Assembly (NCBI GenBank): GCA_024195265.1
Contig: JAJLRJ010000008.1
Coordinates: 822,001-886,000 of the forward strand
Source of the DNA: Dendrophyllia cribrosa
Taxonomy: Eukaryota > Cnidaria > Anthozoa > Scleractinia > Dendrophylliidae
Direction of reading: 5' to 3'
DNA length: 64,000 nucleotides
Under the pieces are notes generated by a model that searched no databases, had not been told where the DNA came from, and saw nothing but the letters and a program-made list of their open reading frames with translations. The translations under genes and the position numbers were made by a program. Of the stretch, positions 3,901 through 61,978 are shown piece after piece (position 1 is the first letter of the stretch; each line of letters begins with the position of its first letter).

Positions 3901-6900
3901 ATTTTACTATAAAAGAAAACTCTAGGTTTTAGTCTATTAAATTCATAAGGAATTTTTAGGTGAACAAGGCCTTTGAAACTTTTCCACTGAAGCGATTTGT
4001 TGAATGCTCTTGAACAGATTATCAACCTCTTTCTCGCTCTCTCGCTCCAGGCGATGGCAAGAAGAGATACCCTCGGGATGATGTTGCTAGACGCTTAACT
4101 GCAAATCAGTTTCCATTTTATAACTTGTGAAGGCCAGGCTATCATGCTTTTTTCTGCTCCAAATTGTCCGACTAAATAGATGTCGATGTAGATGTAAAAG
4201 GATTTTATACAGGATAGAAATCAAAGCATTAGCACTGATCTAAGTTCGCATGACATCATATCATAATGACTCACCATTATGTGAATCTTAGCCTTGCCTT
4301 TCTCTATCACGAACACACCACCCAACCCAACTGGATTGTCTCCATAGTAACGGGCTAGGGCATGACGCATGCACGTGATAAAATTCTCATCACCAGTCCT
4401 CTTGCTGGCACAAACCTTTAAAACCTGCAGCCGACAGAGAATAAAGATGATGAAATGTAGGTAAAAAGGCACTAGCTACATGTATAGCGCAGTTTATTAC
4501 TCCTTTCATTTTCAGAGTTGAATCTCGAGTCAATATGTTTTGTGGTGCTGACTTTTGAGTCCCTGGATGAAATCTGAACATTTTAAAATACAAGCTCAGC
4601 ACATATGCAGCTGTTATTTCCAGTGGAGATTTTTATTTTGCAGTGCAAGGTGTTGTTAACTAACGTTTTTAGTTGGTGGATGTGATTCTAAATTTGAACC
4701 TGATTCTGATAAAAAATGTGTCAGTGTGAGTTGAAGTAATAATAAACTATTACAATAAAAGCTTCTAAAGCTGCTCTTTCCCACAGAGCTGTTTATTTTG
4801 CAGTACAAGATGTTCTAAGGTAACATTTGAGTGATTTTCAGTGGTGCACTGTTTATTATGGCTGTATGAGGTACATGTATCTTTGGATAAAACCATGAAG
4901 TGTATAATGTTGTGGTTCAAATTTTTCTTTGGTTTGCACAGTTTCAAACCAGTTTAATTTTTGTTTTCCTAAGAGAGACACAGGAAAATAACAATTAAAC
5001 TGGTTTGAAACTGTGCAAACCAAAAAAAAAATTTGAACCACAAGGTGTACAATCACCATTCAAATTAATCGATTGAAATATTGATCAGAATTAAAGCTAC
5101 TGGCCCTCGCTTTCTTGCAGTGCTATAATTTATTTTCAACTCTTTCAAAGAGGACATTGTAGACAAGGTATAATGCAATAATAACCAGTGAAGTTCCAGT
5201 CGATTTTTTCTCAAGATTTCAAATCACCTTTCCTGAATTGCCATCACTGACAAGGAAATTTCCCAGCAAACCAAACTCTCTGCAGCTGTAATTTTCTAGG
5301 ACACAGGATCCATTCTAAAACAAACACAAGTGAGTCAGATATGTCATGCACACTGACACTGTTAAACTAAATAACAACAACAAAAAATGACAAGAAAACC
5401 ATCCTTGACTTAATACTGAGATGTAAATTACTGGTAAATTGTGTTTACCAATACCAAAAACTCATTTGTTATGAATCAATTTACATTTAATACTACATAT
5501 TTTTGTAACTACTAAAAAATAAGTCAGAACAGCTTGAACCTTGGGCCTTTAAAAATGGTTTAATACAATGTAAATGGTTTTGTCCCTCAGAATTATACAA
5601 ACCATATTATTATTATTAATATCTTGTTGTCATTGAACTGGTATTTTTACTAAGATTTGAAGTAAGAAAGACAGTATATTAATAGTCTTATTTCATAAAA
5701 AAAAAAAATTTAACAAAAAAAAAATAAATGTCTTCTCACTGCAAATATTTACTGAATGTGCAATGGTGATTTCAATAAACTATCTTAATTTAAATATTAA
5801 ACACTTTATTTTTGGCAATTGTATTTATATTGCAAGAAGACTTGAGAGTTGGTGTCCTGCATTCAAAATAACTGGGATTTTTGTAGCTAAAATTACCTCT
5901 TCATTTACTTTGGCTATCTTTGTTGAAATGACTCCCTTCTGCTCTGAACTGGTCACCAAGTTTGCCATCATCTAAAACATGTATGGCCAAAAACTTCCAA
6001 TTGACATTGTCAACAAAACAATAGGCCATTTCCGAGTTGCCTTTAGCCTCTCTATCAAAGCGAGGCTAGGTGCGAAACCTTTCATATGAAAATGAGTTTT
6101 CATTCACATGCAAATAAAACTTATTTGCACGTGAATAAAAACTCATTTTCATATGAAAGGTCGCGCTTAGCCTCGCTTTGATAGAGAGGCTAAAGGCAAC
6201 TCGGAAATGGCCTGTTGATTTTCTATTTCTCTATTCTTATGTACCATATTTATTCTACTTGTAAATGCCCCGTTCATTTATCACATTTTCCCGTTTTCAG
6301 AGAGGTGTTTAATAGTGAGGGGCATTTGTTAGCGAGAGGCATTTTTTTCATTTCTCTGCAAAGACTTCTCAGGTTGGAACACATCTTACTGCATCCATAA
6401 AACATTGAACTATTTAATTTTTTATTTACATTTATTTATACACGGTTTAAAAAAGAAATACATCAGGTAAATAAAATACTAATCTAAACATTACTATAAT
6501 CATTAACTCGACCTGTTTTCCATGAATACAGTGTCTCTCAAATTTCTTAAGTTTATCACTAATCTCTTAAATTGATTGAGTGATTTTGTCTTGGAGTCCC
6601 TTAGATTACAGGGTAGGCTGTTCCAGAGAGCTGCACCACTTATAGCTAAAGCTATTTTTTAAATAGTTAGTTCATGGAAGAGGGACAAAATTAATAGTTT
6701 CCTTCATGCACTTTAGAGGCTAGGCCCCAAGACCCCTCCTTTAGATCTGCCAATGTATGTGGTACACTGTCTAGTGGTCAGTACAAGCTGTTATTAAATT
6801 TACCTCGCAATTGACTCCAACAAATTTACTGCTGCCAGCTCCTGCGCCAATGATAAATCCTCCTGGAAGCTCTACACTATTTGCTATGTCATCAAAACTG

Positions 6901-8235
6901 TACAACTGCAAATATAACATGAGCATAAAATATATAGCTTCTTGAAATGGCATGTGATTGAAAATGTATTACAGACAATTGATATGACAGGAGCAAGACC
7001 CAGTTGTTAGTCAGAATAAAGAACAACAGTTACCTAGCTTTAGTGCTAAAAATAAAGGGCAAATTTATATCTCAATGCAGCTACAATTCATAACCAATGG
7101 ATGCTTGTTGGTGAATATTATGACAGTGACAGATCCAAAAAATGGTGTCATGTACAGCAGCCAAATACATGTTCACTGCATGCATTCATGTTAAAAATTA
7201 TCTAATATTTTGTTGCTTTTTATTTCAAAAAATCGTTTACAGAACCAAGCTTTATTCTTGGATAAAAGGAATTGTCACTTAGCCAAAATAGCTGAAAATA
7301 TTTTCCATGCATAATTTTTATTAATTTACTTAATTTATGCAAAAATTGGCTCATAACTGATTGCTAATGTGACTTCTCCAGCTCATTTTTCTCTGGACAA
7401 AAGTATGAAGTATGCAACAGTTATTATTAGCTTCTTGATGTTACCTTGGAAAGATCAGGAAGAGGAATAAGGTATGGTGGACCACCAACATCAGCAATTC
7501 TTGTTTTGCCACAAATACCTTTTTATAAGAAAATAAACATTTCAGTCTGACAACAAATTTAAGTGATCACTGAAACAATGTCAACATTTTGAAACATACA
7601 TGTACTCAGTTATTGTTTGAAAATGAATAGGACAAAGTCTGTTGTTTTTCTTTTTTCATTCATGTATAATATTAAATGTCTGCTTGACTAGGTTTTGATA
7701 CAATAAGGGAAATTTGATATTGATCACTGTTGTACCATTTCTTTTGTATTTGAATAAAGTAGTTGCAAGCTAGCCAGTTTTAAAACATTCTTTAAATTCA
7801 CACTAGTTAGTAAAGGAAGCTTGTTAACATAGCTACGTCTCACTTTTTATCTCAAGTGAGTGCAAATAATTTTGGCTACAGTCTGCTCTCTTCACCTAAA
7901 TGCGAGCTCAATATTCTGACTTCTGTGTCTTTATGAACTCTTGATGTTTGTCCATTGTATACAAGATTATGAGGCTGCTTACAGGTTATACTTGTTATGT
8001 AAAAAAAATATATATATCTACTGTAGTAGAACATACCAGAAGAAGCTAGTTTCCATGGTTTCTCTCTTAAATCGGGGCATTTAACCACACTGACTTCCAC
8101 ATTTGAAAAATTCTTGGATAAGCCATCTGTTAAAACTATAAAACAAAAATAGTTAAATACATGTAATAAGAAAAAACTTTATTAAAAATAGCAATAATTA
8201 TAATTTTCAATAACTATAAATTGATACTAATAATG

Positions 8236-32100: not shown

Positions 32101-35100
32101 GTCCGTTCCATCAGTTTGGCCTTATTATAATGTTTTCGGCAACACAAATCTGTTGCTTAGCAATCTGTTTAACTTATACAGCATCTTTTTATTAAAATAC
32201 GCCATTTGCGATACGAGTTCTGTGCACTTAATTTCTTGACGGCTCCTCGTTCTAAGTTCTCCTTAACTCAAAATTCATTTTGTTATTTCAGATAATGACA
32301 ATGACGCAGCCAAGAAGCCCAGCATTTTAAAATTTCTTCCCAGTCGTCAATTATCGCTTTGGAAGCAACAAGCGCGTAAGAAAATGAAGGAGCGAGACCG
32401 CACGAGGGGACAAGTTTACGAAGCCGTAAATAACGAAGACTCTGATGAAGAAATTGACATGGACGATATTAATCACACGGAGGAAAGGAGAAAGTTCCAA
32501 CAAACCGAACCTTTATCTGCACGAATTTCGAGGCTGAGAAAGAGGAGGTAACGGACTTAACATGAAAATTGATTATTCGACTGTGACGTCATTTTATCTT
32601 ACAGGGGAAAGAGAACACGCAAAATATCCGCGCGTATTATCTGTTAAACCATCGAATAAGGTGTATATATTCTGATTCTGATGAATTTTGTGGTAAATGT
32701 GAGAGAAACATGGCAGTACTGAAAACCATCTAAGTGTCAGAAGTCAGTTATTAAACTATAGTAAGACGATTTTAAAACCAAGAGAAACACAGATTCATGT
32801 GATTGTCGAGTTAAACTAATTTTAATTAATGTTTGAAAACGCCTTACGATTTGTTTTCTAAATATTGATGACTGATTGATTGTTGAAATGGTTTTAATTT
32901 AACTGATGTTTTTACCACGCATGTGCATGCATGTGGATAAATTAACATGTCTGCATGCCGTCTGTCTGCTTTTGTATTTCATTGACAGGAGTTCTTCGGA
33001 GACCAGTAGATCCATACAGGGCCTCTCTTCCTTCACAGCCTTGCGACTTCATATCGCAATGGTAAGAGTCATGAGTGCAATTATTTTTGCCACAACCAGA
33101 TTGTCATCTATCACAACATTCTGATATTTAAGCGATTATTTATTTTAATATATCCTAAAATAACACCATTTTAAGTGTCACTTTGAAAAGCGCAAAATAA
33201 TGGCCTAGTTTTGTTTATTCAATTACTGCTCTAAGAGTAAACTTAAGTGTCGTGAGCTGCAGATGGCCAGGATGGAAATGGATTGCAACTTGAAAAACTA
33301 TAATTATGATTTATTCACTTCACATCTTCCTCGTGTGGCGTGGGGCGTGGGACGGAATGAAAGTCTTATTCCACCTTTCACCAGCTCGGTTCGCTCGCTC
33401 GTTTCAGCGGCTTCGCCAATTGTGCACATGCTGAGACACCAAATGCGAGTCCTCTCGCGAAAATGCTTGCACGCTCTCCAGTCGGAGGGGAAAGGATATA
33501 CCTAGGGAAGAAAAACTAGGCTTCTTTCAATTTTCTTGCATTTTTGTTCCCTATATTTTTTTGTCTTTTCCATGAGTGGGTGAGACGCGAAGTTTTGCCT
33601 GTCGAAAAATTGTGCTGCTAATGGGGAACTCACTTGCTTTTCAGCTGTTTAAAAGATGGTTCAGTGAAACTAAGGAATTCTTTAACTCGTATGAGTTATG
33701 GAGAGGACACTTCAAAGAAATAGAAGGTGAAAACACGATTTAGACACGGCTTAGACTGTTTAAACATGATTTAGACATGGTTAAACATGCATGGGAATCC
33801 AAGATGGCAGATCCAAGATTATGATGTGACGTTATCGCATCACGTATCACATAGCTTTTAAAACTCTTGAAGTTACATAGGGAGGGGCTACGGAATCAGT
33901 ACCCCCGATCCCAGAAGATAGAAAAAGAACCCGCCCGGTCTGAATTTTAAAACTATTCACCGCATTAATTTGTGTTGTTACGATTGGTTCCGTGGTAAAA
34001 CTTGCTTCGCTGTACTCTAATATTTGCTTATATTTTGCCTGGCAGGCTCATTCGGAAATGGTGTTCTTTCTTACTTCACGTTTCTCAAGTGGCTTCTTCA
34101 GTTGAACATTTATATCTTTATCCTGACTTTGTGTTTTGTCATCATTCCACAAGCGATAAGCACAGGCGAAGAACCTTTCTCCCCACAAAACAACGTCTCC
34201 TCTAACAAGCCAAACAGTTCTTCAATCTTCTTACCAACTAATTCATCGGTGTCTCTCTCAAGGCAAAGAAGAGATATTCCGTACAACTCCACCGAGGAAG
34301 AAGACAGTGATAAACAGTGCAATCTGGTTAAACCCGTTAAACCAGAAAACCATTCACTTTATACAAACAAGTCTTTTCCACTGCTTCTTGTGGATTTTAT
34401 TTCCGGCGTCGTAAGTATACGGAATATACATTTCATTTCTTGTTACAGTAAAATATAAATATGAGATGCCTTTATTTAAATAGAGTAATTATTCAGTGTT
34501 TACAATGCAAAACCTGTTATAACAGAGGCCCTATATATGAAAATACATTCTCAGCAGGAAGAGTGATAAGGGTTTGTAAGTATGTTAGCTATATATTTGC
34601 TTTTCCAGGTACATAATTAGGATTTCAGTTACATTATTAAACGGAACTTTTAGTACGTACGTACCACAGAGAGGTAAGGTTGGCCTTACTAGGAATAATT
34701 TTGCTTCTTTGTTTTTTTTTGCGGTGGCGGGTCTACAACTGCTCTTAATGGTTACAAACATAGTATGCCATAACGCCAAGTTGTGATATGAATCAACAAC
34801 AAAGCAAGCTTTATTAGAAAAAGGTTACAAGAGGCACCTGACAGCCCCAGTGTGTAAAATAGCCAATACACTATTCGTGGTGGGTGAAGGGAGACGAGAA
34901 TCATTGCGAGATAAAAATATAGTGCAATCGATCGTACAATTTTTCCCACCACACAAAAGCTATCATATTTTCATCACAAAGATATCGATATGGTCAAATA
35001 GTGTTGAACGTTTTGATATGTTAACATCGTTTTATTGTACATATTCACCAATATATAAAAGCAAAAGACTGCGCGTGTTGTAGTGCAAGAAATCGCTATA

Positions 35101-38100
35101 ATTTTCGTATTTTCAGTGGTGACTGCTTTGAGATTAATTTTCAATACCTTCGATTTTTCTTCAGGGCTGGATTAATACAACCCTCATGTATTATGGGATG
35201 TACTCTGATAAGGTACTGGTCATCGGCGGCGAAAGAACTTACTACAACATGCCACTGGCCTATTTTATAGTGGACTGTTTATGCTTTTTGGTTATCCTTC
35301 TCTCGATCCTCTGGAGGTAAGTGTAGTTCTAAATAAATAATATTCAGTTTCATTGAACTTGCAGTTCACATTGAGAAACGAATCGAGAAGTACTGGAACG
35401 AGCATTTGTTTAAATCAGAATTCGAATTTCTTACCATTACCTCTTTCTTAAGATCCATCTTCCCATTCCCGTGCATATCCAAGATTTACGGAGTTTGCAG
35501 GTTCTCAAGGGCGTACCTGACTGTATTAAAGCCAGTTAAGCACGGGCTTAAAATATTTTTGGGGCAATATCTCATCCCCACAAAGCCCAACTTACTCAAT
35601 CCGGATACAACAGTACAACAGACAAGATCTTTTGCACCTACGCCAACGACTTGACAGAGAGGGTCATTTTTGATGGCGAAATTGTGAGGTGGAAGTCAAA
35701 GTGGAAGCAGCTTGCTTCAGAGAAACCATCAACTTTGCAGAGTACCCTGTGCCTCACGAATAAGGAGTTGTACCCCAACGTCACTGCTATTCTCACAATT
35801 CTTTTGACGATGCCAGTGTCAACAGCAACTCGGGAACGATCATTCAGTTGCATGCGAAGGGTCAAGACATACTTGCGCTCTACTGTGCGATCAGAGAGGC
35901 TCTCTGGGCTCGCGCTTCTACATGCGTACAGGGCCCCTGTCGGACACGAGCATCGACAAAGACAAGGTGGTCCAGGAGTTCTGCGCCAGGAAACCCCGCA
36001 GATTGGCATTTGAATTCTGAACACATGTACACAAACCTTCCTCAAACACAGCATTGTCTTTGCGTTAATCTTATTATATAGAAGTAGGGAAATACAACAT
36101 TTACGTGCCTCTTGTTCTGTTAAGCTGCTAAGTAACAGGATGTATTATTATTATTATTATTTATAATATTATTATTATTATTGCACCTACGTTTAGTGTT
36201 ATGATCTGTTGTTAGTGCTCTTAAGAAAAAGAGTCGGAAATTCTTGGAGCGCGTCTTTCAAAATTTAAATTAAATGGACTTGTCTCAAAGAATAGAAGCT
36301 CGAAGCTTCAGATGGTTTCTCCCTGAACAATAATTCGGTGATAATAGACGATATAGCATGTTTATTATTACTTGCGGGTTTTATATATACTACACTCCAA
36401 AATTGGATATACGAAAAGGTTCATAAACTTATGTCACTATGACTAATGATTTATTACTTCAATTCATCACTGATGTGAAACCAAAGAGTAAAAATGTATA
36501 CGTTTCATTATTTCAGTGCCTCACGAATATTCGAAGAGAGCTATGTGAGGGAAGGCAGTAAATACTTTCACACGTACTCTAATAAAGTTTTCGGCGGCTG
36601 GGACATGTGTATTGAAGATAATTCCGCGGGAAAACTCCAGACTATGAGACTAGTTAAAGAGATTGAGGTATGTTAGAAGAATTCGTAATAGTAATGCATA
36701 GTTTTCGTGTTCAGTTTGATTTATTTACACGGTGAGTGCAATTTGAGCTTTTTGAAAAACTCACTTGTGCATATAGATCACAAATTGAACGAGAAAACCG
36801 TATGTTCACTCGATAAACATTTATTTTTTGACCCGATCACCACGAAATCGAATCAATAACCGACCTAGTTGCCAAGATTTCATAAAAAACGGTAAACTAT
36901 ACATTTGCATAACTAGGCGAAAATGACAGACACTGATAAAGAAAACTAACAAAGAAAAGCATGCGATTACGTAATTGTTACTACCAGCTGAAAAATGTCT
37001 CAAGTCTCATTGGCTGAGAGGACACATTAATACTGAATTCTGCGTTTACACGAATATTTCGAATAGAATGTTTAATTTCTAAAAGTCTCACGTGTCCATT
37101 CCTCTCCCTCATTGAGACGACATATTAATACTGAATTCTGCGCTTACATGAATATTTCGATTAGAATGTTTAATTTCTAAAAGTCTCACGTGTCCATTTC
37201 TCTCCCTCATTGAGACGACATATTAATACTGAATTCTGCGCTTACACGAATATTTCGAATAGAATGTTTAATTTCTTAAAGTTTCTCGTGTCCATTTCCC
37301 GCCCCCCCCCCCCCCCCCCCCCCCATTGAGACGACACATTAATACTGAATTTTGCGCTTACACGAATATTTCGAGTAGAATGTTTAATTTCTTAAATTCT
37401 CTCGTGTCCACCGTATGATTACTTATTTTAAAATAATTATGCATGAAAATATATTTACATAGAGGAAGTAACAATTTTATTGCAGATAGGAAGTGAGCAT
37501 TTTACGCGTATTTGACACTTTGTTTACCGATTGGCTGATGAAGATCAGCTCATATTACTAGAAACTCAAAGATTCGTTTGTACATGAAATGTGAAGGAAC
37601 GTTTTAAATAAAATTTACAATGATTTTATAATTTCGTAAATAGTACTGGTGTTACACTTGAACTGCACTGCTCTTAGCCAATCAAAACTGAGTAATTGTA
37701 TTTTAGAGCAGTTTTCAATTGAGTGTCGTAAAACCAAAGTAATTACTCTGATCAATCACAGTAGTCGTAAACAATCCAATGAACCAATCAGAGCTCGAAG
37801 CAATTACATTTCGGCGGCGCCAAGCGCGGGAAAACGCGTGCAAGCAAGTCACGATTGGTTTTGGTTTTACTTCTGATTGGTCGAGAAAGTGGCGCGATAT
37901 TTTTTAGCCAATCACAAAGCGTAGCAATGCAAAACCAAAGCAATTGTGTAATTACTTTCGACACTCAATTGAAAACTGCTCTAAGTATTAAATAATCATT
38001 AGAATTGTTATTATAATTATGAAAATATTTCCCTAAAATGACCGCCTTTGTTGACCCTGAAAGAGGTAGTATTTGAGATATTTGATAATCATATCTTTTC

Positions 38101-41100
38101 TTTCAAGGCTGATCTCGCAGAGGACTTCAGGCTTGCTAATTTAGCCAAAAGAACTCGGAAGGAAAAGTACAAAATCTATGCAATAAGAATTGTGGTGAAT
38201 CTGATTGTGCTTGGACTGTCGGCGCTGTCAGCTTACCTGATTTACTTGGCTAGCCAATTGTCTATAAAGGTAATAAATAATTTAATCAGTTCTGACGACT
38301 TGAGTAACGTAGGAACGAATCAGCCATAAATTTAAAAAATATAAAATATAAATAAAAAATATAAAAGTATAAAATATTCTGACGGCACAATATAGCGGCT
38401 CGCGTGTCCTCAGGGGACATCTCAGGACTATTTAAGGGTTTGGCGTGAGATATTTATCATTCAACGTCGGTCAGTCTTCTTGAGCGCTCCTTTTTTCATT
38501 GTTCAAGGTTGAGTTATAAAAAGTACCTTAAGTATGCCACTGCATTATACGGGGAATACGTTTCCACATATTTTTTGGCCACATCTAAAGTGTGGCTTTT
38601 TAGTGGTTTTTCGCATCTGGCGTGGTACAATTTTCTGAGCTTTTACAAATGTAAACTGAATGTAATGTAAGTAAAATATAATTAACAAGGGTCAAGAGGA
38701 TATACGAATGGTGTTATTAGGATACATTCATCAGATGATGGACTGGCTCATCCTCAATAAAGTAATTCATATTTAATGTCTCGTGTTAATGGAGTCAGAA
38801 TGTCATATATTTTTTTCAAATAAATACGTATAAATATAACTCAGTGGTAGAGCGTTTACACCGTATCACAAAGGTCATGTGATCGAATCACGAAGGTCGT
38901 GGGCTCGAACCCCGTTGTGGCCTGAATTTTTTTTCAGCTTTATTTGCAACTCCTTCAGTTGCTGTATAACTGCGACGATCACATTCTCTTTAATAGAGAT
39001 AAATTAACGAAACTGCAAATACCGTGAACGATCTATTGCGTAACATTGGATCAGTACTTAGGACCGATCAAACAATGTAAAAAGGCATTCTTTTCGAAAT
39101 GGCACTACGGTTGGCCAGACCTGACATGATCAGCGCTTAAAACTAGAAAGCAGACGCAGATAGCTGTTTCTGGCTCGTTGGCCTTCGTCAGTGCGCCGTA
39201 GCTGAAACATAATGAGAGTCGAATAATGTAGCTAATCATTCTAGAAAGAGCTGAAAGGAAAAATTGCGCAACGGTCACGCCACAAACAATTGTGGCACAT
39301 GGCCAAAGAGCAAATTTTCCTAAACTGATACATGTCAGTGCCATAGGGAAAGAAACGGGGAATGGCCAATACCATTGTTCTCCTAGAGATAGAAAAATGC
39401 AGATAGATCGGATCTATTCAAGAGACCACCACGGTATAAAAATAATAATGATAAAACAACGAAACTGCAAATACCGTGAACGATCTATTGCGTAACATTG
39501 GATCAATACTCAGGACCGATCAAACAATGTAAAAAAGGCATTCTTTTCTTTAACAGACCATTTTACAGTTTCTACTTAGTAACCTGGTCTTTGTGTGGAG
39601 ATGAGGCTGGAGTTGACTTGTTTTGATAGAATCCTTTCTTCTTTTCATATGTAAATCATGTTGTTCTTATGCTAACTAACATGATTTACATGTAAAAAGC
39701 AGGAAGGTTTGTATCAAAACAAAGTCAACTCCAGCCTCACTTTCACGCAAAGGCCAGGTTACTAAGCACACAACTGTAAAATGGTCTATTCTTCCTACCG
39801 CAGTTTATTCACATTCTCATTAGTCGCTATCACTACATGTATAAGTATTCGGAATCATCTGAATGTTCTTTTTTTCTCTCAAGACTTTGACTCATATTCG
39901 TTCGTTAAAAATCATTTTTTTCCTCTGTGATCCTCAAATACCGTCCTAGGATGGTAGATTCTGTTTGGGTTTAACTTAATTTTTCACCTTTGTCTTTCTG
40001 TGGCAGACATCTCAAGTTGGTACGGGTACCGAGACGTCAATGACGACTGATTTCATTCAACTACTTAAGAGCTACGCATCACCCATCACGCTCTCAGCTT
40101 TAGGATTCGTTGTTCCTAATATCTTTTTCTTCTTTTCGCGACTGGAGGACTGGAATCCAAGGGCTAGAGTCAACGTGGACTTAGCCAGGTAAGAAGAAGC
40201 AACTTGAACACCTGTTAACCCTCGGACGTACACGCAAACAAAAGTTGCAAAAAAGTTTTGCTAGAGTTGTAAAATATGAAACAGTTAAACATTTTCCTGC
40301 TTTTATTTTAAAGCAAAAAAGGTGAAAAACACGCATTTTTATTCAAAAACGGCTTGACCTCATGCTATTTATGACGCCATATCTCGTTACCATAGCAACC
40401 GATTGTCGCGGAACTTTCTCAAAATGTGTGTAAGGTAGAAACGAACAGCTACTGAAGACGATATATGCTAAGGATAAATGCTCTTGAAAAAATTGGGGGT
40501 ATACACTCCCCCCCCCCCCCCCCCCCCCCCTTGTACGTCCGAGGTTATGATATTAAATTTGACGACACACCCACAACACCTTTTTCTGGTACCGTCAAGG
40601 AGTTCCCTTCAAACGTTCACCCCTGTTAATTATGTATGGGATTACCCCCCCCCCCCCCTCCCGGGTAAGAAAGGTCTGTTTTTAGGTGTCTGTGAATGTA
40701 ACAATATACAATATTCTTTCCTTTTCAGAACGGTACTCCTGAAGTTGGCGTCGGTTGCTGTACTTGTCGTTTCTGTGTACAACAGAATTAATAAGACATG
40801 TATGCTGGTAAGTCACAAACGCTTGTTTAATAAGACATGTATGCTGGTAAGTCACAAACGCTTGTTTAATAAGACATGTATGCTGGTAAGTCACAAACGC
40901 TTGTTTAATAAGACATGTATGCTGGTAAGTCACAAACGCTTGTTTAATAAGACATGTATGCTGGTAAGTCACAAACGCTTGTTTAATAAGACATGTATGC
41001 TGGTAAGTCACAAACGCTTGTTTAATAAGACATGTATGCTAGTAAGTCACAAACGCTTGTTTAATAAGACATGTATGCTGGTAAGTCACAAACGCTTGTT

Positions 41101-44100
41101 TAATAAGACATGTATGCTGGTAAGTCACAAACGCTTGTTTAATAAGACATGTATGCTGGTAAGTAACAAACGCTTGTTTAATAAGACATGTATGCTGGTA
41201 AGTCACAAACGCTTGTTTAATAAGACATGTATGCTGGTAAATTATAAACGCTTGTTTAATAAGACATGTATGCTGGTAAGTCACAAACGCTTGTTTAATA
41301 AGACATGTATGCTGGTAAGTCACAAACGCTTGTTTAATAAGACATGTATGCTGGTAAGTCACAAACGCTTGTTTAATAAGACATGTATGCTGGTAAGTCA
41401 CAAACGCTTGTTTTATAAGACATGTATGCTGGTAAGTCACAAACGCTTGTTTAATAAGACATGTATGCTGGTAAGTCACAAACGCTTGTTTAATAAGACA
41501 TGTATGCTGGTAAGGCACAAACGCTTGTTCAATAAGACATGTATGCTGGTAAGGCACAAACGCTTGTTTAATAAGACATGTATGCTGGTAAGGCACAAAC
41601 GCTTGTTTAATAAGACATGTATGCTGGTAAGTCACAAACGCTTGTTTAATAAGACATGTATGCTGGTAAGTCACAAACGCTTGTTTAATAAGACATGTAT
41701 GCTGGTAAGTCACAAACGCTTGTTTAATAAGACATGTATGCTGGTAAGTCACAAACGCTTGTTTAATAAGACATGTATGCTGGTAAGTCACAAACGCTTG
41801 TTTAATAAGACATGTATGCTGGTAAGTCACAAACGCTTGTTTAATAAGACATGTATGCTGGTAAGTCACAACAGAATTAATAAGACATGTATGCTGGTAA
41901 GTCACAACAGAATTAATAAGACATGTATGCTGGGTCACAAACGCTTGTTTAATAAGACATGTATGCTGGTAAGTCACAAACGCTTGTTTAATAAGACATG
42001 TATGCTGGTAAGTCACAAACGCTTGTTTAATAAGACATGTATGCTGGTAAGTCACAAACGCTTGTTTAATAAGACATGTATGCTGGTAAGTCACAAACGC
42101 TTGTTTAATAAGACATGTATGCTGGTAAGTTATAAACGCTTGTTTAATAAGACATGTATGCTGGTAAGTCACAAACGCTTGTTTAATAAGACATGTATGC
42201 TGGTAAGTCACAAACGCTTGTTTAATAAGACATGTATGCTGGTAAGTCACAAACGCTTGTTTAATAAGACATGTATGCTGGTAAGTCACAAACGATTGTT
42301 TAATAAGACATGTATGCTGGTAAGTCACAAACGCTTGTTTAATAAGACATGTATGCTGGTAAGTCACAAACGCTTGTTTAATAAGACATGTATGCTGGTA
42401 AGTTACAAACGCTTGTTTAATAAGACATGTATGCTGGTAAGTAACAAACGCTTGTTTAATAAGACATGTATGCTGGTAAGTCACAAACGCTTGTTTTATA
42501 AGACATGTATGCTGGTAAGTCACAAACGCTTGTTTAATAAGACATGTATGCTGGTAAGTCACAAACGCTTGTTTAATAAGACATGTATGCTGGTAAGGCA
42601 CAAACGCTTGTTCAATAAGACATGTATGCTGGTAAGGCACAAACGCTTGTTTAATAAGACATGTATGCTGGTAAGTCACAAACGCTTGTTTAATAAGACA
42701 TGTATGCTGGTAAGTCACAAACGCTTGTTTAATAAGACATGTATGCTGGTAAGTCACAAACGCTTGTTTAATAAGACATGTATGCTGGTAAGTCACAAAC
42801 GCTTGTTTAATAAGACATGTATGCTGGTAAGTCACAAACGCTTGTTTAATAAGACATGTATGCTGGTAAGTCACAAACGCTTGTTTAATAAGACATGTAT
42901 GCTGGTAAGTCACAAACGCTTGTTTTGTTCAGACTCGAGAAAGTTATTTTCTATGATGGCTACGATTGTAGGTTCAAGAGAATTCAACCTTGACTTTTCA
43001 CCCATTTATGAGTTAAACTTAATCTTAAATCCAAACCAATCGTGACTTGTCAGTTGAGTTACGTGCGTCAAGTTTTGCCTACGGCCAGGACAAAACATCA
43101 AGTTATTAACTTAGCAAGACCACGCCCAAAATCACATGTTCACTCCACAATGCTTCTTCCTCCGCCGGACTGGATTATGGCATTCAGTGACACATTCTGA
43201 GACATGCTTACCTGCCGATAAACTTCAACAATTTTTCCGTTATAGTCACGTTTTCAGCATTTAGGAATAACAACCAGAAAATGTGTATCAACATATTTTT
43301 CTTTATTTAATTTCACTTGCTCCTCTTGAAATAACCTTCTGGCTTGTAGTTATGTGCGTTGTTTCCCACCAACGCAAAATAAAACAGATGATTATTGTCT
43401 AGTTTAAGTACGTCATTCATTAATTTTCGTTTGCTCATTTGTTTTTCTCAGTGTTGGGAGAACGTGATTGCTGCTGAAATGTACAAGTTGATATGGACTG
43501 ATTTCTTTGTCGTGCTGCTTGTTATCATCGCTGTTCAAACACCTCGAAGGTATCAGCGAGTCTACCTTGTCCGTTTATCCACTAGATGCAATTAAACAGA
43601 ACATCTGAAGCTCTTATACTATTGACGTCAATAATAAACATTTGACTTCGTAATTGACAGTCCACTCCACAGAGTGGCCTGGCCTTTTTTTCCGGCGGGG
43701 CCTGAGCACGGTGACCGAAGAAGTTTTTCGCCCAGTGGTGTTAACTATACAATGTGTTGTCATTCTTAAAGGGGAAGTATCACGGGAATCTTGATGTTTT
43801 TTGGTCCAATCCATTTCACAACACCTGAACTTATTTATAAAATAATGCTGAAACACCAAAAGAGTGAAATCATCAAATTCTTGAAAGAGGAACAAATTAT
43901 GGTCTGTTCTAGTCCATTTGGAGACGAAAATGTGGGAACTTGAAAAAAATTAGGCTAACGTTTTTCAAGTTGCAATTCATTGAGACCCAGTCCGTCAATG
44001 ACTAGAGACACTAATCGACAGTTTTGATATATTTTGTGATAATTTATCACACCACTGGAGCTTTATTTTTCGGTTTCTGATCATACAATATCATTTTTTG

Positions 44101-47100
44101 CTTTTTAAAATGACACCGAATCCCCGTGCTACTTCCCCTTAAAGAACCATTTTGTGTTAACAGTGTGTCTCCACATCTAACCCACAGATAGACTGAAATG
44201 ATATGGGTTTTGACAATAACCATACATCGGTTTATCCCTGTATAGGTATTTTGCTGATCATATAACTTTAGGATGTGATGCAGGAAGGAAAATCGGCCGC
44301 CCGGAGTTTATGATTCCAAATAATGTACTTGAGCTTGTCTATGGTCAGTCGTTGATATGGTAATTTTTTCTTATCATAAACTGATCTCTCATTGTATAAA
44401 ATAGTTTAGTTGTGGAGAGGTGTTTGTAACATTTCATTTAGTTGCAGATTCCCGTAACTGATTCAAAGGTTCCACAAATCTTAAAAAATGTTTTGGCACA
44501 CAGCTAGTAATGTGCATGAAAGGGGTGCTGTATAGTTGCTAAAAACTGTAATAGTTTGACAAAGTGTGACTCGGTTAAAAACAAACAAAAGTCTCCTCTA
44601 TTTTACAACCAGAGTGTTTTCGCGAATGCGTGCGAAATAAAAAAAATATATGCTCAAAATAAATTAGCGTTGCTTGCCACAAAGATGTTTAATTTCGTTA
44701 AAAATAAATTCGTTTTGTACTCATTCCCAAAAAGCGAAACTGGCTAAGGTCCAGAAATTCCTTTTAGACATTATCTGGATGTTTTACCTGGTTCACGTGT
44801 TTTGTTACCCTTTTCATTTTTCAGGATTGGTACATGGTATAGCCCGTTTCTACCTCTCATGGCGATCATAAAGCTACCCATCACATTCTATGCTAAAAAG
44901 GTAGGAATTATTTCGAACATTTTGAGAAGAAAAGCAACCTAAACGCATCTGGAAATGCGTGTCATCCAGACATAAAATAGTGAAAAATTAATGTGATTCG
45001 TGCGTTAACAGTAAGGAAAATTTGGCGAAACCCCGCTGTATTATTTCTTTGTTAATTTTTAATCCTTAACTTTCCATTGCTGGTCTTCTATCAGCACGAT
45101 AAATCGAAAGAATAGGCATGTAGTTCAGTTGAGATTTTTGGACGTCTCTTTATCCCGTACTCTGAAAAGTTTATTAAGATTCAGTTGAATGTCTCGTTTC
45201 AAAACATGGGCAGATCTGAGATTAGGCCACCGTCGTTTTTAATATGCAAATGCAAAGGAAATAAAACCTGAAAAGCCGAAAGTATTTCTTTAGCGTCCTT
45301 GTTTATTTTTTTTTCCGGGGCTATGAGCAAATCTGGGACCACAAGAGTGGGACTAAACCGAGTTGCGAGGCCTTGCCTGTGTCTTTTATTGAGACAACAA
45401 AACAGCACGATAAATATAGTGAAGAAGAACGAATTATGTTTTATCTATACAGGCGACTGTACTGTACAACTGTAGAAGCGAGAAGGCTTACCGTGCCGGG
45501 CGTTCAAACTACTTCTTCATGATCCTGTTACTGGGAACATTTCTTCTTTGCCTGGCTGCGGTTGCTTATGGGATAACACAGTAAGCAGTTATTTGTTAAG
45601 TAAAAAATTGTTACCACCTTGCAATATTTGTCGCTGTGTTTTACACCCGTTTCAAAATGACGCGAAGAAAACTATGAAAGGGTGTATCATTTCATCTAAC
45701 TTGTGGAGAATTGAGACCGATGAGTGCATGTAGAGAGAGCAATTGAATTGAATTAATAATTGACTTGTGTAAAGCGGTGTATAACAATAATTTATTTGTT
45801 TGTTATTGCTAGGATTCGTCCTTCGGAGTTGTATGGACCTTTCAGGTAGGATTGTAGCGTAACCGATGACCCCCCGATGACATGGATCTTCTTACAATAT
45901 CAAAGAACAAATAAATGAAAACAGTATGAAATGAAAGTACTGTTCAGTAACATTCATTTACATGTAAGGGAGACCATTTTAGATTTTATTCACCAACTCA
46001 AACGTAAGATTGTTGTACAGCATCAAAAGAAAGATGACTTGTATTTGAATGGTCAAATGTTAAGAATTTATCGGTTCCCGCATACTCCTTGTAAAACATG
46101 ACAAAAAGTACCAGGAGAAAGCATTTTATCTTGCCTGTGATAGCAAAAGAACAATGCGATATGAATTTTATTTCTTGGGATAAGGTCTTGCCTTAGATCG
46201 AAGCCAGCCCATCATAAATAACCCGGACCAAATCTTTTTTGTTTTTCAGAGGATTAAGTAAAGTTTACGATATCATTCCCTGGACCGTGTCAATTCTTCC
46301 CGAAGGACTGCGCCGCACGTTTCAAATTCTCAGTTCACCCGTGTTTCTCGTGGTGCTCGGAGTAGTCATTTGGTAAGTACAGAAGCTTGTCACGTATAAG
46401 CTTCTGGTTAGTAATGCATCAAACATAACTACTGTATCGGTGTAGGTTAAAACAGAGGTACAGCCGAATTTTTTTAAAAACCTCGGTGTTTGGATACCTG
46501 ATCAAACACTCTTCCTCATGTTTGATATACTACTACCGTCAAACCTCTTTGTTTCACTAATATCTTGTTCCTTTCAACTTATAGGAAGTACCCTAGGACG
46601 GGTATAATAATGAAAATCAAACCGCTACCAAATTATAAATTAAAGGAAAATATATAAAGACAATACCTTGCTATTGGCAATTATTCTCAATTAAAGATAA
46701 AGATAAAGATTTGATTTAACGTGACTTCGACAAGAAGGCTAGTAAGATTATAAATGTATAACCCGGCGGTGACTCGGTGAGTAATGGCTATTCCGGCAAT
46801 TGATTATGGGATTGACTATCAATAATGGCAAGGACCAAAAGGAATGGAACATGAACAGAGTTTACCCTTACTCTCCATCAAGAGTTACCCACGTGAACTG
46901 TGTACACAAGTTTATTACTTCTAGTTTCATTTTCTGGAAATATGAAAACAAACAGCGCTATAAAGAAGCGGAACAAAAAGGATTCCTGAAAGGGCTATAG
47001 TACCTAAGGCAGCGACAAATATGGTTCGAATTTTGCTACAGTGTTTCTTTATATACCAAGCTGAAACAAGACACATGGAAACTAGGCAGCTTCCTACCTC

Positions 47101-48060
47101 ATACAGTTTTGATAACTAAGTAGGTTCTGATGACACTAACGATTTATACGTCATTCGACCTGGTAATGTTTTATCGATAAGTGATTAATGATCGAATTTC
47201 TTCTTGCAGTCTTGGTTTGTACTTCTTCTATGCAATGGCCAAAGTTTATCGAAAAATGATAACTGGCCTTCGAGAAGAACTTAGTATGGTATGTCATTTT
47301 TAATTTCTACCAAATAATGAGGTCATAAATTCAGAATAAATTTATGCGTTGAATGTACAGTGGAACCCCGCCTTACGACCACCCCGTTAATACGACCACC
47401 TCGTTATTACGACCACTTTTTGGAGGCAAGAAAAAGCGTTCATTCAGTCATTTTCTTATCTAGAAAACCTCGTTAATCCGACCACCCCATTAATACGACC
47501 ACATTTTTATGGCCCAACGGCGGTCGTATTAACGGGGTTCCACTGTAATACAAACCTGAAAGGAAAGGAAGAGGGGGGCGTGGAAGGAATGCGGAGGGGG
47601 AAACCTGAAAAGGCCTCGTTTTCACGTTAGGTCTGTCCGTATTTCAGAACTCATGTTCTGGGACTGATTACCGGTCGGGATGATTGATTCATTTATGGGG
47701 CATGACCCCACCCTTTGGACTCGAGAGGAGCTGATTATATCTTACACACCGCAGCCTGCAGGAGAGAGCACTTTAGGACTCTAGGAAAGACACCCTAGGA
47801 AAATTGGCCACCGTAAAGAAAATCAAAAGCCGACGTTTGGAGCGCTTAACCTTCGTCAGAGCGAATGATTTTTGATTAGTTTGATTGAGAGAAGGAGACG
47901 CGGTCGCTTAGGTCGTAATATTTTTATTACTTGCTTGTGTTTCCCCAGTTCTTTAAATATTATACACGTAATGATATTTTTTACCTCTCAAAAGGAATCC
48001 AGAGACAAGAAGTATCTACTCCAGTTCTTTACAAGTCAGGGGACTGAAGGGCAAAAATGA
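26196..48060 (+). CDS. TMC: Transmembrane channel-like (TMC) protein, 18 exons
   Basis: Exons: 26196-26268, 32292-32547, 32989-33061, 33645-33726, 34046-34410, 35165-35316, 36517-36667, 38108-38269, 40007-40188, 40729-40807, 43452-43549, 44246-44359, 44825-44900, 45453-45580, 45813-45845, 46250-46372, 47210-47288 and 47995-48060. All junctions are GT..AG with matching phases, giving 2292 bases (763 residues). Residues 1-134 are charged and cytosolic-looking. EGSFGNGVLSYFTFLKWLL (161 onward) opens the first membrane segment. A Ser/Asn-rich loop with NxS/T sites follows (about 198-280). The TMC hallmark CWEN (526) and PNNVLELVYGQSLIW (582-596) are present, with further membrane segments at about 312-333, 407-432, 456-480, 500-517, 538-556, 635-660 and 700-728. 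TMC proteins are membrane proteins of the TMEM16-like fold; some are subunits of mechanosensory channels. I cannot assign the vertebrate subfamily. The loop before CWEN is unusually short if the first donor of exon 10 is used. Confidence 0.95.
27602..27985. repeat. MITE with 'taaggcgggactc' ends
   Basis: 'ttaaggcgggactc' at the left and 'gagtcccgcctta' at the right bound about 384 bases in TMC intron 1. It directly abuts the next element. Confidence 0.7.
27986..28975. mobile_element. ~1-kb inverted-repeat element
   Basis: 'tgcgccgatcaattcgaaac' then 'atcaacatcacccccccggg' at the left are mirrored near 28930-28975 by the poly-G run, 'gatgttgatgtttcgaat' and 'tgatcggcgca'. The inner arms also share 'cccgggcattt'. 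No transposase is seen. The two reading frames over the arms are by-products. Confidence 0.7.
29878..30138. repeat. MITE with 'aagtcccggctatacgttc' ends
   Basis: The right end is 'gaacatgtagccggggctt'. Internal repeats of 'acgttctaacattg' and 'caacaaatgttagaacgtg' are arranged in both orientations. Confidence 0.8.
30302..30766. repeat. MITE with 'taaggccggcacacacta' ends
   Basis: 'taaaggccggcacacactag' at the left and 'tagtgtgtgccggcctta' at the right, with internal 'gcaacatgtccccgctt' copies in both orientations. Length about 465 bp, in TMC intron 1. Confidence 0.82.
30881..31038. repeat. Palindrome 'cgactgagtcgataagg' with a 10-bp internal tandem
   Basis: The arms begin 'aacacgagaatttagtttt' and mirror to 'actaaattctcgtgtt'. 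The middle has four copies of 'gaatctttt' in tandem. A one-arm relic is at 10813. Confidence 0.85.
31108..31219. repeat. Short foldback MITE 'aacagttatagtgc'
   Basis: 'aacagttatagtgc' at the left and 'gcactataactgtt' at the right, with imperfectly mirrored 'atatcgcc' and 'gccgactcggc'-like text inside. Confidence 0.75.
35651..36020 (+). pseudogene. hAT transposase C-terminal dimerisation fragment
   Basis: The translation has LYPNVTAILTILLTMPVST then ATRERSFSCMRRVKTYLRS, the signature of the hAT dimerisation domain near the transposase C-terminus. The frame breaks at about 35930 and continues in another frame as DKDKVVQEFCARKPRRLAFEF with a stop ending at 36020. Only this end of the gene is present, inside TMC intron 6, so it is a dead fragment. 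Confidence 0.85.
37010..37410. repeat. Four-unit tandem repeat of ~99 bp
   Basis: Units repeat 'attaatactgaattctgcg', 'acacgaatatttcgaatag' and 'tctcacgtgtccattt'. A poly-C run of about 22 bases (37302-37324) interrupts the junction of units 3 and 4. It lies in TMC intron 7. Confidence 0.85.
37704..37983 (+). mobile_element. CCAAT-rich MITE, copy 3
   Basis: Same orientation as the copy at 3290. The ends are agagcagttttcaattgag and ctcaattgaaaactgctct. It lies in TMC intron 7, 125 bases before exon 8. Confidence 0.9.
38836..38922 (+). repeat. tRNA-like SINE head
   Basis: 'taactcagtggtagagcg' matches a tRNA A box and 'gtgggctcgaaccccg' a B box. The segment 'caaaggtcatgtgatcgaat' before it looks like a duplicated B-box region, so the spacing is too long for a tRNA. 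It lies in TMC intron 8. Confidence 0.55.
39007..39549. repeat. ~90-bp direct repeat flanking 363 bp
   Basis: 'acgaaactgcaaataccgtg' through 'aaaggcattcttttc' occurs at 39007-39095 and again at 39459-39549 with only a few differences. The enclosed segment has no coding character. Confidence 0.8.
39555..39787. repeat. Foldback MITE 'agaccattttacagtt'
   Basis: 'agaccattttacagtttct' at the left, 'aactgtaaaatggtct' at the right, and inner arms 'gaggctggagttgactt' / 'aagtcaactccagcctc'. It lies in TMC intron 8. Confidence 0.88.
40790..42925 (+). repeat. 39-bp minisatellite, ~55 units, each carrying the exon 10 splice donor
   Basis: The unit is aataagacatgtatgctg followed by gtaagtcacaaacgcttgttt-type text (39 bases, 13 codons). 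The first unit overlaps the last 18 coding bases of TMC exon 10 and its donor (ctg|gtaagt at 40805). Nearly every unit repeats that donor. A few read gtaagg or gtaaat, and one (about 41930) has lost it. The array is open in frame on both strands because the unit is a multiple of three. The long frames here (855 and 624 codons) are therefore repeat translations, although the plus frame is in phase with exon 10. The variant pattern repeats with an offset of 1083 bases. Confidence 0.95.
43767..44143. repeat. MITE with 'aaaggggaagta' ends
   Basis: 'taaaggggaagtatcacggg' at the left and 'cccgtgctacttcccctta' at the right bound about 377 bases in TMC intron 11. Confidence 0.8.
47356..47547. repeat. 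Tc1/pogo-like MITE 'acagtggaacc'
   Basis: 'tacagtggaaccccg' at the left and 'cggggttccactgta' at the right, with internal repeats of 'taatacgaccacc'. TA dinucleotides at both ends fit a TA target site. It lies in TMC intron 17. A single related end, 'tacagtggaacctctac', is at 29045. Confidence 0.85.
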
Positions 48061-60766: not shown

Positions 60767-61912
60767 TTACTGCGACTTTATCGAAACAGTGTAAGCTGTC
60801 AATCTCACACTATTGTCATGTCCAGTGGCGCTTACATGACGCCCTTTACTAAATGTTATAGAAGAAGTGCTTTTCTGAAGCGATGAGGATCCTGATCTTG
60901 ACCGCCGCATTGTTCCTCTACCGATTTTTCTGATCGACAGGTAAAGGATGCGATACGTCTCCCTGAACTTTCGACTTCTGAGAGAGTATATGAAAGGATT
61001 AAGGGCGGAGTTCAGGTATCCTAAAATTAACAGCGCGGTTTGCAGTTCTGTTACACGTGGTGTGTTATAATAACACTGTTTACAAAGACTAAAAGCAAAA
61101 CTTGTTATGCTGAAAGGAAACCAACAGAAAAACAATGCACATATTATAAAAGCAATCGTCTTCGTTGCCTTGAGGTTTCTTTGAAAGTTCCCGTGGTCGC
61201 GCGGTGTCGGATGACGAGCGATGTGACTTGGCGAGGAGGTGGCTGCTTCGTGTAAATCATGACATTTTTGCACATCCATCGCTATGCGGTATATCTTAAA
61301 ATAAATCCCTGCTATGACGAATAATGGCAGAATAAAGTGAAGTACAGTACTCAGAACAGAGTATGCTGGCGTGATATTGAAGTAGCAGTAACCGTTTATC
61401 ACATGAGATGGGTAATACCGCCAACCTATGATAGGGATCAATGAAAAGGCGAGACAGTAACACCACAGGAACACCACCACGACGCGAGAGCGCTTCATAG
61501 TCAGGAAATTTGTCTTGCGGAACCGCCTTAAAGGATCACTCAGAGACTTGTAACGGTCAACTGTGAGCGCCACCAGAGACAACATGGAGGTAGGAACGCT
61601 GAACAGGTAGACTGTTGTCCACACAATGCAGAGGATTTCATTGTGTTTCCATGCGCCGTTTAGAAGCAAGCTTTCTGCATCAAACGGCATCGCAAGGCAG
61701 GCTGTCAGAAAATCGGAGCAAGCCAGTGAAAAGATGAAGGACATTGTCGGTGAAGAACGGAGACCTTTATTGATACAGATTGCCATGCAAACTAGCAAGT
61801 TTCCAATAAGTGAAGTGGCAATGATGACAAAGTAGCAAACTATGCAAGTAAAGACAAACGCCGGGTGAAACTCAGAACTGTTTCCTTGTCCTGAGAGCGA
61901 TGTGTTGTTCAT
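60767..61912 (-). CDS. Rhodopsin-family (class A) GPCR, single exon
   Basis: 381 residues from the Met at 61912. An in-frame Met 22 codons upstream (61978) is possible, but the chosen start places the N-glycosylation sites NNTS and NSS near the N-terminus, as usual. Seven hydrophobic segments are visible. Conserved points: N38 in GN (TM1), D67 in LACSD (TM2), C95 and DRY at 119-121 (TM3), CWFPF (TM6) and LNSALNPFIY (TM7). ECL2 has Cys in NGYCYF. The position equivalent to 3.32 is Tyr (102), so the amine-binding Asp is absent, and there is no opsin Lys at 7.43. The intracellular loop 3 is short and the tail is Ser/Arg-rich. The ligand is unknown. Intronless receptors of this type are common in cnidarians. 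Confidence 0.93.
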   Translation of the reverse strand: MNNTSLSGQGNSSEFHPAFVFTCIVCYFVIIATSLIGNLLVCMAICINKGLRSSPTMSFIFSLACSDFLTACLAMPFDAESLLLNGAWKHNEILCIVWTTVYLFSVPTSMLSLVALTVDRYKSLSDPLRRFRKTNFLTMKRSRVVVVFLWCYCLAFSLIPIIGWRYYPSHVINGYCYFNITPAYSVLSTVLHFILPLFVIAGIYFKIYRIAMDVQKCHDLHEAATSSPSHIARHPTPRDHGNFQRNLKATKTIAFIICALFFCWFPFSITSFAFSLCKQCYYNTPRVTELQTALLILGYLNSALNPFIYSLRSRKFRETYRILYLSIRKIGRGTMRRSRSGSSSLQKSTSSITFSKGRHVSATGHDNSVRLTAYTVSIKSQ

Positions 61913-61978
61913 TTTGAACTGAACTAGACCTTTGAAATGAGAATACAACCAAGTGTTAATTATACTTTGTTTTATCAT

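Follow-up and report, generated by a model that had tools for sequence, protein, structure and literature searches.

A minisatellite across a coding-exon boundary repeats a splice donor of a TMC gene some 55 times in the coral Dendrophyllia cribrosa

In this study, we asked how the splice donor of a coding exon could have come to be repeated some 55 times, and which of the copies the gene is likely to use. The locus lies in a stretch of 64,000 nucleotides from Dendrophyllia cribrosa (contig JAJLRJ010000008.1, positions 822,001 to 886,000 of the forward strand), referred to here as the window and numbered from its first base. A first-pass annotation had assigned the host gene to the TMC family, and this assignment is borne out by a PF07810 match of 97.7 bits (cut-off 25) and by the CWE signature; the protein is 79% identical to its counterpart in Porites harrisoni. 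The gene was modelled on the forward strand with 17 exons (32292..48060), excluding the N-terminal exon; 15 exons rest on hand-placed splice sites and the last two, near 47210 and 47995, were placed by eye. The coding exon whose end forms the first junction copy, (R)TVLLKLASVAVLVVSVYNRINKTCML, occupies 40729..40807, and relatives align across it. It is followed by an intron of 2644 nt (40808..43451), which would measure 547 nt with the last copy only, and then by an exon beginning CWENVIAAEMYKLIW (43452..43549), which matches PF07810 and carries the TMC signature. This exon opens with TGT TGG GAG, that is CWE, in the same phase as that set by the first donor. As had been proposed, the junction falls in the TM5–TM6 loop just ahead of CWE, the loop placement and the TMC topology, for which ten membrane helices in a TMEM16-like fold are expected, being taken from published TMC papers.

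The array extends over the end of the exon and the start of the intron on the forward strand (40788..42925), and Tandem Repeats Finder (TRF) describes it with a period of 39, 55.1 copies, 97% matches and a score of 4024. Anchoring on ACATGTATGCT, we counted 55 junction copies with donors from 40808 to 42905, which upholds the earlier description of a minisatellite multiplying a TMC donor about 55 times. The proposed 39-bp, 13-codon unit holds for most of the array, the spacing between junction copies being 39 in 51 cases; the other three units are 36 bp long but in frame all the same. Two types of duplication junction are present, of 39 and 36 bp, with exon–intron microhomologies of 2 and 4 bases. 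The first combines 18 exonic with 21 intronic bases, and the second, found in units 28 and 29 (41861..41932), combines 25 with 11 through a second exon/intron breakpoint that includes the exon-derived CAGAATT and the 4-base microhomology. Unit 30 (41933..41968) is 36 bp long for another reason: three bases have been lost, and with them the donor (CTG/GGTCAC) but not the frame. At its far end the array gives way to native intron with TGTTCAG (42926..42932), a weak acceptor-like site, and the open exon frame runs on as far as 43042. Among the 54 full units, 17 deviate from the consensus, in an ordered pattern with common variant blocks; units 16–20 and 44–48 have identical variants, equally spaced and in register, which indicates block duplication or conversion. 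Such common blocks and homogenization are the turnover typical of minisatellites. When the 22-contig, 627-Mb assembly was queried with two units, all 26 matches listed, a lower bound, fell inside this array.

Most of the copies are intact as splice signals. The first donor, CTG/GTAAGT (40805..40813, cut at 40807/40808), is repeated exactly at 47 of the 55 junction copies, in line with the earlier statement that nearly every unit keeps a strong donor. The remainder comprise five CTG/GTAAGG and one each of CTA/GTAAGT, CTG/GTAAAT and the CTG/GGTCAC mentioned above, so that the junction GT is kept in 54 of 55 units. With the sequence that we take the U1 5' end to have, the calculated pairing of the first donor is −9.1 kcal/mol, the sixth strongest among 15 scored donors of the gene.

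An exon-edge minisatellite that carries donors is a known kind, represented by the mirages of amphioxus and by human IFI6, and the coral TMC array, a tandem repeat over the exon–intron boundary of a real gene with many intact splice signals, is another member. The human IFI6 (6-16) donor minisatellite, described by Turri and colleagues in 1995, reportedly has a 12-bp unit in about 26 copies. There, as in the coral, repeat units furnish donors at an exon end, and two downstream units are reported also to act as donors, giving three mRNAs (PMC4526556); later-donor use is thus shown by RNA in man, whereas the coral array is known from DNA alone. The amphioxus mirages (Adh3, globins BflGb6 and BflGb9, troponin C and PGBD5) are likewise described as boundary-spanning tandem repeats with splice signals in many units (PMC3087553, PMC3902484). 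Their reported units are 150–160 bp in BflGb6, in 6 and 3 copies, and 10–72 bp in Adh3 (PMC3087553), whereas the coral array has 55 copies of a donor-side unit of 39 bp that stays in frame. Length and somatic instability are reported for the amphioxus mirages, while the coral array is represented here by one assembly. Tandem genomic duplication as a source of splice signals is also described for potato RdRp, in that case as an intron gain (PMC4974935), whereas in the coral TMC gene an existing donor was multiplied and no new intron is visible. Our literature search on the theme, whose coverage largely excluded subscription papers, found no cnidarian exon-edge minisatellite among the papers listed.

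The explanation that we consider probable is a mirage-type minisatellite formed by duplication of the junction, in which the first donor dominates, nearby donors are used to a minor extent and the array is tolerated. The TMC exon/intron junction would have been tandemly duplicated and then expanded to about 55 copies, with unequal exchange or conversion partly homogenizing the units, and the intron would have grown from about 0.55 to 2.6 kb in the process. Since each unit ends in the last 18 bases of the exon, every intact donor yields the native junction NKTCML/CWEN in the protein, with YKTCML for two of the units, and since the units are 39 or 36 bases long, every donor choice is in frame. 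Any donor would give a readable TMC protein, and the array may therefore be tolerated. Use of the first donor would produce the 79-nt exon, a protein as in other corals and the bulk of the mRNA, and a small share may come from one or a few of the donors shortly downstream, each of which would lengthen the extracellular TM5–TM6 loop by 13 residues. Where duplicated donors compete, it is often the downstream one that is chosen, so that the first donor need not dominate. The short loop left by the first donor had been regarded as unusual, but its length is identical in 12 of 15 aligned hexacoral relatives, with one residue more in another and gene models broken at this place in two; a repeat insertion is absent from all 15, and the native junction is visible in 13. 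The first donor alone therefore yields the usual coral protein, and the idea that the short loop reflects missing sequence was rejected. Among paralogous loci in the same genome, inspected by eye, L011 and L013 have their acceptors 12 nt and 8 nt ahead of CWE, respectively, and L009 has CWE but no intron at that point; L012 overlaps L011, and L010, L014 and L015 have no visible CWE.

A second reading, which we regard as unlikely, is that the array is a functional ladder of in-frame donors, many of which are used to make TMC isoforms with from none to several N-glycosylated 13-residue repeats in the TM5–TM6 loop, the range being set by the array length of the individual. In its favour, every unit is in frame and 47 of 55 donors are the same as the first; the unit table agrees with the earlier proposal that a switch to a later donor would insert NKTCMLVSHKRLF-type repeats and keep the frame. 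Each extra 39-bp unit would encode 13 residues, VSHKRLFNKTCML, with one N-glycosylation sequon and one cysteine. Peptides made from the array would be of the type LFNKTCMLVSHK. The loop is reported to vary in length across the family, that of worm TMC-1 having about 200 flexible, poorly conserved residues with three predicted N-glycosylation sites (PMC9605866). In mouse Tmc1 an alternative splice event adjoining this point is described that removes residues 517–519 in TM6, at the proposed pore entrance (PMC7920537), and the three donors used in IFI6 (PMC4526556) also speak for such a ladder. However, the loop hardly varies among the hexacoral relatives, and the extra cysteine of each repeat would lie near that of the TMC motif, which is reported to take part in a conserved disulfide (PMC12250529). 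In addition, a second array in the same genome is frameshifted after its first units, and the substitutions show no bias towards preserving protein or donor.

The exon frame is open from 40478 to a TGA at 43043 and, as had been noted, no unit has a stop in this phase, whereas the other two sense frames, read onward from the first donor, meet stops at 40809 and 40828. However, only 4 of the 117 possible single substitutions of the unit make a stop and the antisense strand over 41039–42928 is also open, for 629 codons, and the open frame is therefore weak evidence of coding. From the unit table we tallied by hand nine distinct substitutions in the array, among which the chance of zero stops is about 0.73. 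Four of the nine are synonymous, against an expected 19–27% (P about 0.15 at 24%), and the 9-base donor has received three, where 2.1 would be expected. Taken together, the synonymous share, the donor hits, the zero stops and the antisense frame do not support coding selection on the array; retention and open frame are within chance, and the pattern looks neutral. A unit that is a multiple of three together with an open exon frame is a feature of IFI6-type minisatellites; the coral array has both, with a chance probability of about 0.25. Against the explanation preferred here, a frame constraint is mildly hinted at by the unit lengths, since 39, the 36 of the second breakpoint and the 36 of the 3-base loss can each be divided by three; by our own estimate this would happen by chance about once in 27. 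A 5.8-billion protein search with the exon-plus-array frame, in which hits depend on length and on having 5-residue words in common, gave 5040 candidates with none at E 1e-3; TMC relatives likewise were not returned, and the search is therefore weak evidence. A stronger version is still less likely. In it a population of isoforms would carry N-glycosylated repeats beside the pore-lining helix, and the range of repeat number would follow from mutation of the minisatellite among individuals and perhaps among the cells of one colony. Variation of array length between individuals is in itself plausible.

It is equally improbable that the array acts as a cluster of decoy donors, in which the first donor would face competition from dozens of U1 sites, the intron would be removed more slowly or retained, and TMC output would be reduced according to copy number. 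The density of sites, 55 junction copies with 47 identical donors within 2.1 kb, would favour this. However, Adh3 data and globin RT-PCR suggested that regular splicing is undisturbed by the amphioxus mirages (PMC3087553, PMC3902484). The frame continues through a retained array as far as the stop at 43043, and harm by decoys would thus need retention. That the array was inflated or invented in assembly we consider very doubtful: tandem arrays are error-prone and a single assembly lies behind the result, but the ordered variants and common blocks in 17 of 54 full units and the single locus in a chromosome-scale assembly speak against it, even if the copy number may be off. Least credible of all is additional use of acceptors within the array, by which the AAG 12 nt before each donor, in TCACAAACGCTTGTTTAATAAG/ACATGTATGCTG/GTAAGT, would give 12-nt microexons (TCML), because AAG is a poor acceptor end and the modest pyrimidine stretch there (11 of 20) is surpassed by the true acceptor at 43452, with CAG and 17 of 20 pyrimidines.

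The array amounts to a natural experiment on donor choice, with dozens of near-identical sites on offer to the spliceosome and, because all are in frame, every splicing outcome readable as protein. Should later donors be used, an extracellular loop of a mechanosensory-type channel would be open to tuning by a minisatellite. The second array, on C12, also has a 39-bp donor-spanning unit, in 34.6 copies, although its sequence and gene are unrelated to those of the TMC array, and it speaks for the mirage-type explanation. Its start coincides with the end of a probable coding exon (ERVKQFIDVVNELIATPRVNK/GTAAGT), and its frame, open initially, is broken where the fifth unit listed has lost 4 bases; family and structure searches gave no convincing match for the gene. 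Together with this array, mirages would extend from lancelets and man to corals.

A genome-wide survey with three donor patterns and reversed-pattern controls, in which counts are of matches and not of arrays, gave 47 matches against 232 for AGGTAAGT at spacing 16–46, and 232 against 972 for GGTAAGTB at spacing 29–59. GGTAAGT at the latter spacing gave 4213 against 1122, those among the matches listed being GGTAAGTATG satellite; an excess of donor-like arrays over the control therefore depends on counting the satellite. Among the 47 AGGTAAGT matches, 41 are short repeats of GGTAAGTATG or AGGT type, two belong to a 17-bp repeat on C2 and four to the C12 array. The flanks of five survey arrays were inspected by eye. 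No coding exon was evident beside L060, L072 or L076, and L058 is nearly all array. L051 has one open frame upstream, which resembles a stretch near 43860–43940 of the window and is therefore probably a dispersed repeat.

The array occupies a TMC gene on the plus strand (32292 to approximately 48060), the frame of which is open across exons joined at hand-placed splice sites in a model that leaves out the N-terminal exon. The gene product matches PF07810 with 97.7 bits (Pfam), and its closest named relatives are the stony coral TMC proteins of Porites harrisoni (79% identity), Oculina patagonica (74%) and Orbicella faveolata (74%); the sea anemone proteins P0012-P0014 reach 45-52%. When the repeat units were searched alone, no Pfam family was matched. 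A 39-bp unit is present in 55.1 tandem copies at the end of the exon at 40729-40807; it combines the last 18 exon bases, AATAAGACATGTATGCTG, with the first 21 intron bases, GTAAGTCACAAACGCTTGTTT, and therefore carries a splice donor. This is much as the first-pass annotation had described it, and the array is real: CTG|GTAAGT accounts for 47 of the 55 donor copies, with CTG|GTAAGG in five, CTA|GTAAGT and CTG|GTAAAT in one each and one lost. The computed pairing energy of the array donor with the 5' end of U1, -9.1 kcal/mol, is sixth among the 15 scored donors of the gene, which makes it a good site and not an exceptional one. With the array, the intron has a length of 2644 nt; without it, the length would be 547 nt. 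Another intron of the gene contains a hAT transposase remnant (35552-36013, plus strand; Pfam Dimer_Tnp_hAT, 45.8 bits).

The array may plausibly affect splicing. We favour a tolerated mirage, that is a minisatellite spanning an exon-intron boundary, over an evolved isoform ladder, in which many in-frame donors would be used to add 13-residue repeats to the TM5-TM6 loop, because the sequence statistics are at chance level and the loop is near-constant in relatives. The exon frame is, as had been claimed, open across the whole array, up to a stop at 43043. However, only four of the 117 possible single substitutions in the unit create a stop, giving a probability of about 0.73 that nine distinct substitutions produce none. 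With the 15 intronic bases behind GTAAGT shuffled, the unit stayed open in 76% of cases, and the chance of an open unit with a length divisible by three is thus about 0.25 (76% x one third). Neither protein nor donor looks constrained, since synonymous changes make up four of the nine distinct substitutions (19-27% expected) and the 9-base donor takes three (2.1 expected). The antisense strand over the array also has an open frame, of 629 codons. A single feature mildly suggests frame constraint: the three unit length classes are all multiples of three. The unit had been given as 13 codons, which holds for the 51 spacings of 39 bp but not for the three of 36 bp.

The short loop had been taken for an unusual state, which was not borne out by alignment with 15 hexacoral relatives: loop length is equal in 12 of these (P0001-P0012), in the form YNRINKTCML|CWEN with changes, while P0013 is one residue longer and the gene models of P0014 and P0015 are broken at the loop. 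None of the 15 has the array repeat. From this alignment, the first donor by itself gives the usual coral TMC protein. Every intact array donor would likewise bring the protein to NKTCML|CWEN (YKTCML in units 16 and 44), because each unit closes with the exon's own tail. In worm TMC-1 this extracellular loop, as described in PMC9605866, has about 200 residues, is unseen in the map and poorly conserved, and carries three predicted N-glycosylation sites; sequence comparison, with weak scores, places the coral junction between worm residues 451 and 665. In mouse Tmc1, alternative splicing deletes residues 517-519, adjoining the same point (PMC7920537). Length change at this site is thus tolerated within the TMC family, although in the coral every repeat used would bring one more cysteine into the loop. 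TM4 and TM6 are placed at the cavity edge in TMC1 models (PMC6067890), and the TMC motif opens TM6, with a conserved disulfide linking it to the loop beside TM9 (PMC12250529). Intron position near CWE differs between TMC paralogs of D. cribrosa: by eye, the intron ends 12 nt ahead of CWE in L011 and 8 nt ahead of it in L013, and L009 has none there.

Seventeen of the 54 full units depart from the consensus. Unit 30 has lost its donor by a 3-base loss and hence measures 36 bp. Units 28 and 29 hold exon sequence from farther upstream (CAGAATT) and therefore go back to another exon-intron breakpoint, with 25 exonic and 11 intronic bases; exon/intron microhomology is two bases at the 39-bp junction and four at the 36-bp junction. 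Identical variants recur in register in units 16-20 and 44-48, which is indicative of conversion or of duplication in blocks. The array belongs with the mirages of amphioxus genes, for which length instability, instability in somatic cells at Adh3, and regular splicing by RT-PCR have been reported (PMC3087553, PMC3902484), and with the human IFI6 minisatellite, in which two downstream donor units are used besides the first (PMC4526556); it is a large member of this kind, keeps the frame and lies in a channel-like gene.

A search of the D. cribrosa assembly (22 contigs, 627 Mb) for closely spaced AGGTAAGT revealed a second donor array on the minus strand of contig C12 (exon approximately 37721029-37720967; array at 5647-6991 of locus L038), with 34.6 copies of a 39-bp unit unrelated in sequence to that of the TMC array. 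It starts where a probable coding exon ends (ERVKQFIDVVNELIATPRVNK|GTAAGT), and further phase-0 exon-like stretches with splice signals were seen by eye upstream; searches with this gene gave no convincing match to a protein family or structure. Among the 28 units listed, the donor is AAG|GTAAGT in 15, AAA|GTAAGT in 12 and broken in one. The frame is lost at the fifth of these units, where four bases are missing, and donors can thus multiply in this genome even when the frame is not preserved. Both arrays have a period of 39 bp. The AGGTAAGT pattern gave 47 matches versus 232 in the reversed-pattern control, and at spacings of 29-59 GGTAAGTB gave 232 versus 972 and GGTAAGT 4213 versus 1122, the last with the GGTAAGTATG satellite counted. 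GGTAAGT-bearing arrays are not rare in this genome; an exon-end position could be shown for none of five others inspected. Many donor-like GGTAAGT sites stem from the 10-bp GGTAAGTATG-type satellite (C1:17175805-17177836, C3:27264089-27280987 and C12:35175468-35189805). A 49-bp array at C2:275598-275752 (minus strand; 55.7 copies in the 3.1-kb locus L058) has an acceptor-like stretch, GTTTTGCAG, in its unit and the donor TGTGG|GTAAGT in some units.

Elsewhere in the window, ARAGORN found no tRNA; a tRNA-like stretch, gggctcgaacccc, at 38840-38925 (plus strand) is perhaps a tRNA-derived short interspersed element. A single open frame of 403 aa at 60767-61978 (minus strand) resembles, by eye, a rhodopsin-class G-protein-coupled receptor.
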